A DNA stretch of 64,000 bases from Bacillota bacterium (GTDB lineage: Bacteria > Bacillota > Negativicutes > Sporomusales > CTSoil-080). Below are positions 24,878 through 29,763 of the stretch, in pieces. The notes under the pieces are model-generated. The model ran no database searches. It saw only the letters and a list, made by a program, of their open reading frames with translations, and had not been told where the DNA came from. Position 1 is the stretch's first letter. Each line of letters begins with the position of its first letter. The position numbers and the translations under genes are program-made. The stretch covers positions 62,001-126,000 of the forward strand of contig JAGGAC010000003.1 of assembly GCA_017889635.1 (NCBI GenBank), read 5' to 3'.

Positions 24878-24907
24878 TTGACATATAGGGTGTGGATGGT
24901 GTACTAT
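24878..24907 (+). promoter_or_regulatory. Promoter of the MFS-marR operon
   Basis: A consensus TTGACA (24878-24883), an 18-base spacer and TACTAT (24902-24907). The first MarR operator starts eleven bases after the -10, so a bound repressor would cover the transcription start. Confidence 0.7.
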
Positions 24908-24917
24908 TAACAAATAG

Positions 24918-24929
24918 TTAACTAGTTAA
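24918..24929. promoter_or_regulatory. MarR operator copy 1
   Basis: A perfect palindrome TTAACTAGTTAA lying over the predicted transcription start of the MFS gene. The same 12-mer recurs at 24946 and 26869. Its left flank ATAG matches copy 3. Confidence 0.7.
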
Positions 24930-24938
24930 TAATTAGCT

Positions 24939-24964
24939 GAAATAATTAACTAGTTAATTATTTC
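24939..24964. promoter_or_regulatory. MarR operator copy 2, extended 26-bp palindrome
   Basis: A perfect 26-bp palindrome centred between 24951 and 24952, with the core TTAACTAGTTAA at 24946-24957. It lies 28 bases from copy 1. Two dyads this close fit cooperative binding of MarR dimers. Confidence 0.7.
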
Positions 24965-25079
24965 TTTATTTACTAGTTGGAATGCAATAAACAAATCTAT
25001 TCGAGTAGTAACAAAGTTTTGGTTGTTTAAATGCAAAGAAAAAGCACTTTTATTAAAAGAAGAAAAGAGGAGATATAAG

Positions 25080-26288
25080 GTGAACGTTCGATTATGGACC
25101 AAAAATTTTATTTTGTTGCTTTGTTCCAATGCATTAATGTTTGGTGGTTTTCATATTCTGTTGCCGACACTCCCGCTTTATGCGGCTTATAATGGGGCTA
25201 ACGGAACAGAAATAGGAGTTATAACCGGCATTTTTGGGTTTTCAGCAATTTTTATTCGTTTTTTTACCGATTTCGGAATAAAAAAACTGGGAAAAAAGAA
25301 TTGTTTGTTTCTTGGCTTAGCGCTTAACATTATTTGTACAGCAGGCTATGCAATATTTACTTCGGTTGACGGAATGATTGCAACCCGGATTATTCATGGT
25401 TTTGGCTTTGGGATGACTACTACTTTTTACGCTGCAATTGCATCTGATATTGTACCGTATACCCGCAGAGGTGAGGGTATGGGATATTTCGGATTGGGAA
25501 GTACGGTAGCAATGGCTTTAGCACCTGCTGCCGGAGTATGGCTGGTAAAAGATTATGGTTTTGTTGCCATGTTTGTGGTTGCGGCAATTGGTACAGCTAT
25601 TGCATTGATTGGAACAATGCTTTGTTCTGTACCGCGGGAGGTTGTTGTCCTCGAAACTGCACAGGAAAAAACGAGTTTGCTTTCAAAGCTTTTTGAAACA
25701 GGAACAGGTTTCCCTGCGTTTCTGACAATACTGTTTGGCCTTGGGTACGGCAGTGTGAATACCTTTGTAGCAATGCTGGCGCAAGAGGCGCATATTCCGG
25801 ATGCTGGTTACTTCTTCATTGTTGGAACATTATGTGTTTTCTTATCACGCCCATTAGGCGGAAAGATTTTTGATAGTAAAGGCCCGGCATGGATAATCTT
25901 ACCTGGAGCAATTTTATTACTTGCTGGATTAGTGCTGCTTACCAAAACTACGTCGCTTATAATGCTACTTGGGGTATCGGTATTATATGGCTTCGGTGGA
26001 GGCTTTCTGTTACCGTCGCTCTTAACTTGGATGCTGAATTTAGTGCAGTCTAACCGCCGGAGTGGTGCTAGCGCGACTTTTTATAATATGCTGGATGTGG
26101 GAACAAGTGCGGGAGCCATTTTACTTGGATCTTTAGCCGAGAAAACCGGCTTTGTCAATATGTACATATATTCGGCAGCCGCAATGGGCATTTTCCTGTT
26201 CGCTTTTATTATATATGTATTGCTATATGGAAACACCGGAAAGGTTCAACAGGAAGAAGAGTTGGAACTTGCTCATGATATTAAATAA
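25080..26288 (+). CDS. Major facilitator superfamily transporter
   Basis: A 402-residue, 12-segment MFS permease, probably a drug or metabolite exporter. The N-terminal half shows a cytoplasmic loop after the second segment (FTDFGIKKLGKKN) and an R-x-x-H-G-F-G-F-G motif in segment 4 (TRIIHGFGFGM). The two halves are separated by a loop near residue 200. GTG at 25080 has GAGGAGA upstream; the longer frame to 25023 runs through A-rich leader. Followed 45 bases later by a MarR gene, a common self-regulated export unit. Substrate unknown. Confidence 0.85.
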   Translation: MNVRLWTKNFILLLCSNALMFGGFHILLPTLPLYAAYNGANGTEIGVITGIFGFSAIFIRFFTDFGIKKLGKKNCLFLGLALNIICTAGYAIFTSVDGMIATRIIHGFGFGMTTTFYAAIASDIVPYTRRGEGMGYFGLGSTVAMALAPAAGVWLVKDYGFVAMFVVAAIGTAIALIGTMLCSVPREVVVLETAQEKTSLLSKLFETGTGFPAFLTILFGLGYGSVNTFVAMLAQEAHIPDAGYFFIVGTLCVFLSRPLGGKIFDSKGPAWIILPGAILLLAGLVLLTKTTSLIMLLGVSVLYGFGGGFLLPSLLTWMLNLVQSNRRSGASATFYNMLDVGTSAGAILLGSLAEKTGFVNMYIYSAAAMGIFLFAFIIYVLLYGNTGKVQQEEELELAHDIK

Positions 26289-26333
26289 TGGTGTTATAAA
26301 TTAGTCATTTAAACTAATCTTGGAGGAGGAAAG

Positions 26334-26810
26334 ATGGATAACCCGCGCCTTTACCCAATTGGTGATATTCTTCATAATACTGATATAAACTTTTCAAATT
26401 TGCTTTCTGCCAGGTTTAAGGAATTTGATGTTACTCCGGAACAATGGCTTTTACTTCATTCTTTATCAGCAAATGATGGGATAAATCAGAAAGAACTTTC
26501 GGCACGAGTGGGAAAAAATCAGACTATTGTTACGCGAATGTTGGATATCTTAGAACGCAAAGGCTGTGTTGAGCGAAAACCAGCTCCTGCAGACAGACGG
26601 GCCTTTCTAGTATGTATAACGGATAAAGGCTTAGAACTACAGAAACAATTACTGGCTGTAGAAGAGAAAACGGTGAAAGCCGTGTTGAAAGATATTTTAC
26701 CGGAGAAACTTGACACCTTTATTCAGATTTGCAACAAGATTAATGAAAGTACTGAGGGGATTATAAGAGAATTTAAAAACCATAAAGTGTCCTGCCCCAG
26801 ATTTGAATAA
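26334..26810 (+). CDS. MarR-family transcriptional regulator (operon repressor)
   Basis: A 158-residue winged-helix MarR protein. The recognition region GINQKELSARVGKNQTIVTRMLDILERKG (seen as INQKELSARVG and TRMLDILERKG) and the wing RKPAPADRRAFLVCIT are clear. It likely represses its own operon by binding the TTAACTAGTTAA palindromes upstream of the MFS gene and downstream of its own terminator; this is inferred from location and symmetry. A Cys (VLVCI and the final SCPRF) may sense redox or ligand. TTGGAGGAGG precedes the ATG. Confidence 0.88.
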   Translation: MDNPRLYPIGDILHNTDINFSNLLSARFKEFDVTPEQWLLLHSLSANDGINQKELSARVGKNQTIVTRMLDILERKGCVERKPAPADRRAFLVCITDKGLELQKQLLAVEEKTVKAVLKDILPEKLDTFIQICNKINESTEGIIREFKNHKVSCPRFE

Positions 26811-26822
26811 TTACTTTTCTGT

Positions 26823-26862
26823 AGATAAAAAAAATATAACATTTGTTATATTTTTTTTATCT
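26823..26862. terminator. Terminator after the MFS-marR operon
   Basis: A perfect 18-bp A/T-rich inverted repeat (26823-26840 with 26845-26862), loop ATTT, with A8 and T8 runs inside the arms. It separates marR from operator copy 3 and the small ORF that follows. Confidence 0.75.
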
Positions 26863-26868
26863 GAATAG

Positions 26869-26880
26869 TTAACTAGTTAA
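26869..26880. promoter_or_regulatory. MarR operator copy 3
   Basis: An exact third copy of TTAACTAGTTAA with the same left flank (AATAG) as copy 1. A -10-like TATAAAAT follows at 26884-26891. It lies after the marR terminator and before a small membrane ORF, so that ORF is the likely third target. Confidence 0.65.
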
Positions 26881-26932: not shown

Positions 26933-27130
26933 ATTCAGCTCACTTTTATTACTTCCTTTGTCCTTTGGCTAATTATTGCTGTATTGAGTTATCTTTTTTC
27001 TTCACCGTCATTGGATGAAAATGATAAAGAGCCGTTTCGCCAGATCAGCAGATCGGTTAAAAAGAGAGTAGGTTATTCGTTAATAATAGCCACTTTTATG
27101 CTAATAGGATTAGTAGCTATTGACAGATAG
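26933..27130 (+). CDS. Small two-segment membrane protein with apparent ATT start
   Basis: A 65-residue frame not opened by ATG, GTG or TTG. AAGGTGA lies four bases ahead of an in-frame ATT at 26933, and a stop precedes the frame. The product has two hydrophobic segments (about residues 3-23 and 48-63) joined by a charged loop (SSPSLDENDKEPFRQISRSVKKR) here cut as SLDENDKEPF and SVKKRVG. The hydrophobic/charged pattern looks protein-like. No family recognised. Operator copy 3 sits about 50 bases upstream, suggesting MarR control. Alternatives: a decayed gene, or a start in another frame. Confidence 0.45.
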   Translation: MQLTFITSFVLWLIIAVLSYLFSSPSLDENDKEPFRQISRSVKKRVGYSLIIATFMLIGLVAIDR

Positions 27131-27300: not shown

Positions 27301-27783
27301 ATTGCTAATCCTGAAGAAATAATTGATCCGTATTGGGGGCAGATGGAAACAACCGACCGCGTAATGCATCAATTGTACCAAACTACTCGAATTATTTCTA
27401 AGAGTGTGAATAAAATGCTGGAATCACATGGCCTATTTAGTTCTGAATGGACAATTATCAAAGTAATTAAGGAACGAGGCTCAATGTCGCAAGCTACGTT
27501 AGCGAATTATTTAAATATTGAACCGGCGGCAATATCGAAAAGCTTGTTTAAGTTAGAGAAAAAAGGAATAGTTGAGCGACGGGCGGGAAGTGACAAACGG
27601 GAAAAAGCGGTATTTTTGACTGAAGCTGCTTTGCAGCAATACCCAATCTGGCAAGATGTTGTTGCTAGGAATCGAAAACAAGTGTTTAATGAGTTGTCTG
27701 CTGAGGACCAAAATCAATTATATATGTTGTTAAAGGCTATATTTAGAAGCGCCAAACATGAATCGCCTCCCGATGAAGAATGA
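27301..27783 (+). CDS. MarR-family transcriptional regulator, second copy
   Basis: A winged-helix MarR regulator: helix-turn-helix GSMSQATLANYLNIEPAAIS and wing VERRAGSDKREKAVFLT. Only the first ATG at 27343 is canonical, but its GGGGG is three bases away. The frame runs upstream to an ATT at 27301 with AAAGGGGGC seven bases ahead and a protein-like segment (NPEEIIDPYWGQ). That start gives 160 residues, the ATG start 146. It has no MFS partner; the next gene is an ABC protein 258 bases downstream. It is only distantly similar to the first MarR. Confidence 0.8.
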   Translation: MANPEEIIDPYWGQMETTDRVMHQLYQTTRIISKSVNKMLESHGLFSSEWTIIKVIKERGSMSQATLANYLNIEPAAISKSLFKLEKKGIVERRAGSDKREKAVFLTEAALQQYPIWQDVVARNRKQVFNELSAEDQNQLYMLLKAIFRSAKHESPPDEE

Positions 27784-28041: not shown

Positions 28042-29763
28042 ATGCAGAAACTTAATCTTAACTTTTTAAAGGGAACGTGGAAACTAACCAAGCTTTATTG
28101 GCAGTCGGAGGAAAAGTGGCGCTCGCTCGGACTGCTGGCGGTAATTGTAATTCTAACCCTCGGTAGTGTCTATCTATTGGTTTTGCTTAATGGCTGGCGA
28201 AATAACTTTTATACTGCGCTGCAGAATTATGACAAGGCCGGATTGATTAATGGCGTAGGCTATTTTATTGTAATAGCGTTTATCCATATTATTGTAGCTG
28301 TTTATAGACTGTATTTGAGTCAGCTTCTCGAACTCCGGTGGCGCAAGTGGCTGACCAGTTATTATTTAAAAAACTGGCTGAATAAACGAGCCTATTATTT
28401 GATGCAAATTACAAGTAACGGTGCTGATAATCCTGACCAGCGGATCAGCGAGGACTTAAAAGCATTTGTAACTTTAACCTTGGATTTATCACTTGGGACG
28501 CTCAAGGCGGCAGTGACTTTGATTTCCTTTATCTTTATTCTTTGGGAATTGTCTGGTGAGATGACGATTCCACTGGGACAAAATGAGTATGTTATTCCAG
28601 GATACTTGGTTTGGGTAACAATTATTTACGCAGTGGCGGGAAACTGGTTGACAGTAAAAATAGGTCGGCCACTGGTAAAGTTAAACTTTTTTCAACAGCG
28701 CTATGAGGCAGATTTCCGGTTTAGTTTGGTTCGGTTGCGGGAGAACAGCGAGAGTATTGCCTTTTACGGCGGTGAAACACAGGAAGGTGCAAACTTTGGC
28801 AGCCGGTTTAAGCTGGTCGTAGACAATTTCTTTGAAGTTATGAAGCGGCAGAAGAAACTTACCTGGTTTGTGTCCGGCTATGGTCAGACTGCAGTCATTG
28901 TACCGTTGGTACTAGCTTTGCCTAGCTACTTAAGCAAAAAGATAACACTAGGCGGGTTCCTGCAGATCAGCGAAGCTTTCGGTAATGTGCAGGACTCCCT
29001 GTCTTACTTTGTTGATAATTACTCGAAGTTGGCGGAATGGCAGGCTGTGGTAAGCCGTCTACTTGGTTTTGTCGAAAATGTCGATGTGGTCCAGAATTTG
29101 GCCGAGCAGCCTAATCTAGTGTCTGGCTATACAGCCGAACCGTCATTCAGTGCGGTAGGTCTCAATGTTTATCTGCCAACCGGGGAACAGCTAATAAACG
29201 ATTTTGAGCTTAAGTTAGCCCCCGGTGATTCGCTATTAGTAACCGGCCCATCAGGCTGCGGTAAAAGTACTTTGCTAAGGACGCTTGCTGGAATATGGCC
29301 GTTTGGAAATGGTAAGATTACCAGGCCAGAAAACTTTAAGGTGCTTTTTTTGCCCCAGAAGCCATATCTTCCGTTAGGTTCGTTGCGCGATATTTTGCTA
29401 TATCCCGGTGGCACAGAGGCAATAAATGATGAAAGAATTAAAAAGGTTATAATCCTTTGTAGACTTGAGGAACTTGCTGATAAGTTGGACATAGTGGAAA
29501 GCTGGTCCCATATTTTGTCGCTAGGAGAACAACAGCGGATTGCTTTTGCCAGGGCGATACTTCAGCAGCCTGACTGGCTATTTCTTGATGAAGCCACTTC
29601 GGCAATGGATGAGCCAATGGAACAGGCGTTGTACAGTCTTATAGGTCAAGAATTACAAAATACTGCGATAATAAGCGTTGGCCATCGAAGTACACTAATA
29701 AGCTATCATAAGCTCAAGCTAAACTTTACTGATGAAGGCCGCTGGTGTTTAATGACAAGTTGA
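28042..29763 (+). CDS. SbmA/BacA/YddA-type ABC transporter (fused permease-ATPase)
   Basis: A 573-residue half-transporter of the ABCD/YddA type. The N-terminal ABC_membrane_2 domain (about 1-330, six membrane segments, with the conserved RENSESIAFYGGE block near 233) is fused to an ATPase with Walker A GPSGCGKST (about 405), signature LSLGEQQR (about 492) and Walker B WLFLDEATS. Relatives import peptides or vitamin B12-like compounds, or act on very long chain lipids. This family is mainly proteobacterial and cyanobacterial, so its presence in a Firmicute is notable. GAAAGGAGAG precedes the ATG. Confidence 0.85.
   Translation: MQKLNLNFLKGTWKLTKLYWQSEEKWRSLGLLAVIVILTLGSVYLLVLLNGWRNNFYTALQNYDKAGLINGVGYFIVIAFIHIIVAVYRLYLSQLLELRWRKWLTSYYLKNWLNKRAYYLMQITSNGADNPDQRISEDLKAFVTLTLDLSLGTLKAAVTLISFIFILWELSGEMTIPLGQNEYVIPGYLVWVTIIYAVAGNWLTVKIGRPLVKLNFFQQRYEADFRFSLVRLRENSESIAFYGGETQEGANFGSRFKLVVDNFFEVMKRQKKLTWFVSGYGQTAVIVPLVLALPSYLSKKITLGGFLQISEAFGNVQDSLSYFVDNYSKLAEWQAVVSRLLGFVENVDVVQNLAEQPNLVSGYTAEPSFSAVGLNVYLPTGEQLINDFELKLAPGDSLLVTGPSGCGKSTLLRTLAGIWPFGNGKITRPENFKVLFLPQKPYLPLGSLRDILLYPGGTEAINDERIKKVIILCRLEELADKLDIVESWSHILSLGEQQRIAFARAILQQPDWLFLDEATSAMDEPMEQALYSLIGQELQNTAIISVGHRSTLISYHKLKLNFTDEGRWCLMTS

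Follow-up and report, generated by a model that had tools for sequence, protein, structure and literature searches.

At an MFS exporter locus of this Bacillota genome, three copies of the 12-base palindrome TTAACTAGTTAA are very probably the switch sites of an export-pump operon. They are predicted to be read by MarR2, a MarR-type regulator encoded at 27343, and not by MarR1, the regulator at 26334 that adjoins the exporter gene; this assignment to MarR2 is very probable at most. Judged by comparison with related genomes, the feature is a real, conserved case of regulation of an ordinary kind, for which the regulator is to be corrected from MarR1 to MarR2. What was computed for this explanation comprises the positions of the sites, their uniqueness in the genome, their conservation, their co-occurrence with MarR2-type genes and the promoter geometry. 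An earlier note on this DNA had proposed a MarR regulon around the MFS operon; the operator set itself is strongly supported by the site, its pairing and its placement at promoters across the class, and the choice of the MarR at 26334 as the reader is the part that is not supported.

The palindromic sites and their locus

Scanning of the whole window, the 64,000-nucleotide stretch of DNA analyzed here, recovers exact copies of TTAACTAGTTAA at 24918-24929, 24946-24957, and 26869-26880 and no fourth, and the second copy is enclosed by the 26-bp perfect palindrome GAAATAATTAACTAGTTAATTATTTC at 24939-24964, all as originally described. The genome-wide count proposed as a check gives the same three exact copies in the 4,536,269 bp of the organism's own genome, all at the MFS locus, which rules out copies scattered across the genome. 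The reversed pattern, used as a control, has 2 exact copies, and when one mismatch is allowed it has 55 sites versus 21 for TTAACTAGTTAA. Assuming about 2 expected copies per genome, simple arithmetic places the chance of three copies within 2 kb at about 1e-6. Outside the locus the genome has 18 sites with one mismatch, of which the 12 examined in context (with the neighboring genes checked for 3) yielded no convincing extra target, and full-text literature searches returned no report of the exact site. The same genome has another MFS gene with 63% identity to that of the window (C93:14500-22000); a divergent MarR2-like gene precedes it, and some 160 bp upstream of this regulator gene lies ATAACTAGTTAA, a site with one mismatch.

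The features of the locus are listed below; G001 is a CTSoil_081 metagenome-assembled genome (MAG) from the same family.

24878..24907, + strand: predicted promoter of the MFS operon, TTGACA-18-TACTAT; a like arrangement is found in G001 (TTGACA-18-TATATT) and in most relatives
24918..24929: predicted operator O1, TTAACTAGTTAA, starting 10 bp past the -10 box; kept in G001
24939..24964: predicted operator O2, TTAACTAGTTAA within the 26-bp perfect palindrome; kept in G001
25080..26288, + strand: DHA1-like MFS exporter gene; CntE, NorA, and other exporters of drugs or metallophores match it weakly
26334..26810, + strand: MarR1, the regulator named in the earlier note; present at the MFS locus in this genome and G001 alone
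26822..26863, + strand: A/U-rich hairpin (-18.3 kcal/mol, z -7.6) that probably terminates the MFS-MarR1 transcript
26869..26880: predicted operator O3, TTAACTAGTTAA, ahead of the small ORF and MarR2; its flanks fit an operator profile built without O3
26933..27130, + strand: small membrane-protein-like ORF of 65 codons between the two MarR genes, with ATT where the G001 homolog has ATG
27343..27783, + strand: MarR2, predicted repressor reading O1, O2, and O3

The first two copies thus lie at the start of the MFS operon, just past a promoter-like element, and the third follows the terminator-like hairpin and precedes ORFs at 26933 and 27343, in agreement with the original description. Both regulators contain the Pfam MarR domain (55.6 bits for MarR1 and 44.3 for MarR2, against a cut-off of 24.6), and an SbmA/BacA-like ABC transporter gene lies downstream of MarR2 at 28042. 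The small ORF has a homolog in G001 with 66% identity and a 53% identical paralog in the organism's own genome (G000:C125). Upstream of the MarR2 ATG (27301-27343), the window genome and G001 encode a conserved peptide, with silent changes in the DNA, that extends back to an ATT codon preceded by AGGGGG; this ATT may be a start codon in both.

Conservation of the predicted operator across the Negativicutes

In G001, MFS, MarR1, and MarR2 are contiguous and lie in a different neighborhood from that of the window. The paired sites are spaced 27 bp apart there versus 28 in the window genome and are nearly the longest stretches conserved between the two MFS leaders; the G001 locus has neither the third site nor the small ORF. 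When 380 genomes of the class (Negativicutes; lineage of relatives checked for Pectinatus) were scanned blind for the paired sites, 9 carriers were recovered versus 0 for the control. In all 9 the pair precedes an orthologous MFS gene (53-58% identical outside this family), after which comes a MarR2-type gene. Among the relatives named are Pectinatus, Propionispira, Mitsuokella, Selenomonas, Megasphaera, and Sporomusa. Eighteen carrier genomes have one to three exact copies of TTAACTAGTTAA each, with all but one copy at the MFS locus.

The promoter geometry is likewise shared: the distance from the -10 box to the start of the first operator is 9-19 bp in most loci, and a second operator often follows. 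Loci of the Sporomusa type, in which MarR2 is the leading gene, have tandem repeats of related TATACTAGTTAA boxes that start within the -10 region. The variants TTAACCGGTTAA, TTGACTAGTCAA, and TTGACATGTCAA also mark MarR2-type units.

Several further arrangements were seen in the course of this survey. One MarR2-MFS unit (L132) is fronted by seven boxes in a tandem array of the 15-bp unit CATATACTAGTCAAT, and in Lucifera butyrica (L143) a 54-bp perfect palindrome with three ACTAGT boxes lies upstream of a MarR2-type gene. Selenomonas relatives (L116 and L119-L123) display TTGACATGTCAA-like promoter boxes at MFS orthologs without a clear MarR2-type neighbor; no regulator of these boxes was found. 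Outside the class, Vibrio salinus (L184) encodes a 46% identical MFS homolog, perhaps the result of horizontal transfer.

The predicted regulator of the sites

The MFS gene is linked to a MarR2-type neighbor in many genomes of the class. Among 56 MarR2-type loci, 29 have the exact TTAACTAGTTAA ahead of the unit and 40 have TTRACNNGTYAA there; several others (L141, L245-L247, and L260) have no recognizable site. MarR2-type genes are also found beside dissimilar MFS genes (27-34% identity), where the operator is usually still present, which ties the site to the regulator and not to the pump. MarR1-type loci outside the MFS operon present the opposite picture, with the site in 0 of 14. At the MFS locus itself, the set of MFS orthologs has MarR1 in the window genome and G001 only, lying between MFS and MarR2. 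We assign the sites to MarR2 on these grounds: the operator marks MarR2-type units, MarR1-type units elsewhere lack it, and MarR1 is present at the MFS locus in just two genomes. Fisher tests give values of 2e-4 to 8e-7, which serve only as an indication, as the loci are related by descent and do not constitute independent evidence; on the comparative data, the stronger argument is the repeated pairing of the operator with MarR2 in different gene contexts. A rule by which a Lys-to-Arg change in the recognition helix would accompany a change from TTAAC to TTGAC in the box was considered and dropped, as it reflects one clade in the tree, with L249 fitting and L248 (Arg with TTAAC) breaking it; it is a hint only.

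The suggestion that MarR1 binds all three sites and thereby autoregulates the MFS-MarR1 operon has a natural appeal, in that MarR1 adjoins the MFS gene within the operon of this genome and of G001, and autoregulation by the nearest MarR is usual. It is nonetheless very unlikely: the site is kept with 27343-type MarR genes in dozens of genomes that have no 26334-type gene in the MFS operon, MarR1 homologs elsewhere lack it, including a paralog in the same genome that is 48% identical and has the same NQTIVTR helix, and the genome has no further copies of TTAACTAGTTAA. The comparison with relatives proposed in the earlier note thus confirms the site as a conserved element of the MFS promoter across the class but places it in the company of the MarR2-type regulator. 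That the paired sites might instead function at the RNA level, by forming a hairpin in the 5' leader, is scarcely credible. O1 and O2 can indeed pair as RNA (-18.7 kcal/mol, z -6.1), but any two palindromes of identical sequence would do likewise, many loci have a single site, and the tandem arrays of the Sporomusa type begin in the -10 region, which fits DNA binding.

A more specific comparison is with the zinc regulators AdcR and ZitR of Streptococcus and Lactococcus, members of the MarR superfamily whose operators, one or two per promoter, have the consensus TTAACYRGTTAA (PMC6372160). The window sites match this consensus, the recognition helices are alike (QAAVTK and PAAISK), and the MFS protein has a sub-threshold match of 75 bits to the CntE model, all of which could be taken to point to a zinc sensor of this kind with an exporter that handles a metal or metallophore. 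Yet MarR2 is only 19% identical to AdcR and is linked to an exporter and not to zinc uptake. It scores 22.9 bits against the NCBIfam AdcR model NF038251, whose cut-off is 175 (MarR1 is not listed). Furthermore, at the positions that we take to be the zinc ligands of AdcR, the TQEH histidine is a Trp in MarR2 and the histidine-rich EEHHHHHEH segment is absent. The family score and the metal-binding residues rule out membership in the AdcR/ZitR family, and the zinc-sensor reading as a whole is highly improbable; MarR2 is predicted to be a typical MarR repressor of an exporter.

Among the systems compared, the closest studied MarR-MFS arrangement is that of PchR (YvmB) of Bacillus subtilis, which has several GTTYMMYMGTAAAC boxes at its own promoter, is autoregulated, adjoins the MFS gene yvmA, and also controls the pulcherriminic acid genes (PMC4992311). 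Its box differs from TTAACTAGTTAA, which excludes membership in that group. The best solved-structure match of the MFS alignment is the multidrug exporter NorA (E 5e-13), but the relationship is distant and its substrate is not transferable.

The third site

The third site does precede another unit, the additional target suggested in the earlier note; the most fitting view of this target is that it is the gene of the actual regulator and not a separate member of the regulon. Equally good matches to the operator profile arise in 0.15% of random flanks, or 1.2% at 76% AT. An operator is common ahead of MarR2-type genes that head a unit of their own, as in the case of a standalone MarR2-type gene (62% identity; L254:1960-2460) with its own TTAACTAGTTAA. 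The small ORF was considered as the natural owner of O3 and set aside, its homologs elsewhere being without the site. Because of the fit of the flanks, the self-fronting operators and the siteless homologs of the small ORF, O3 probably serves the autoregulation of MarR2. In the same L254 region, another palindrome, which contains ACTAGT boxes, precedes a membrane-like ORF of 36 codons.

No promoter of the usual geometry is visible at O3, so that it might also act as a roadblock to read-through from the operon. That O3 is such a roadblock, or was left behind when a rearrangement separated MarR2 from the operon, and is not a promoter operator, is a possibility that we regard as doubtful. The arrangement in G001, with MarR2 contiguous with the operon and without a third site, is in line with it; the perfect core, the operator-like flanks, and the operators commonly found ahead of MarR2-type genes that open their own units argue against it.

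Proposed mechanism

We consider it highly likely that O1 and O2 are tandem MarR2 operators through which the MFS operon is repressed until a ligand releases the regulator, with O3 most likely keeping MarR2 under its own control. A MarR2 dimer on TTAACTAGTTAA just past the -10 box would block transcription of the exporter operon: with the first operator 9-19 bp past the -10 box, the bound dimer would cover the transcription start. A small ligand would free MarR2 from the DNA, so that the pump is made when needed. The geometry and the -10 arrays of the Sporomusa type support a DNA operator and repression at initiation; binding, repression, ligand release, and the role of O3 are what we infer from such data. 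The MFS operon of many relatives continues directly with MarR2, and the circuit would be autoregulated there. In the window genome, the terminator-like hairpin and the small membrane ORF part MarR2 from the operon, and O3 would front the new unit.

It is conceivable, though unlikely, that MarR2, widespread as the repressor of this exporter, also controls a MarR1 captured into the operon in this family, in a two-step MarR cascade, with MarR2 itself having moved to a separate autoregulated unit behind O3. In that case, inducing the pump would, by way of MarR1, also switch a second regulon.

Implications

These observations provide a predicted regulator-operator pair for an uncharacterized clade of MarR proteins in Negativicutes, including Selenomonas, Pectinatus, Mitsuokella, Megasphaera, Sporomusa, and others. 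They also indicate that, contrary to a common assumption in annotation, the nearest MarR gene need not be the one that reads an adjoining operator. An operator identical to that of the streptococcal zinc regulators is predicted to be read here by a MarR protein without their metal site, so that regulon predictions would be misled by the operator sequence alone.
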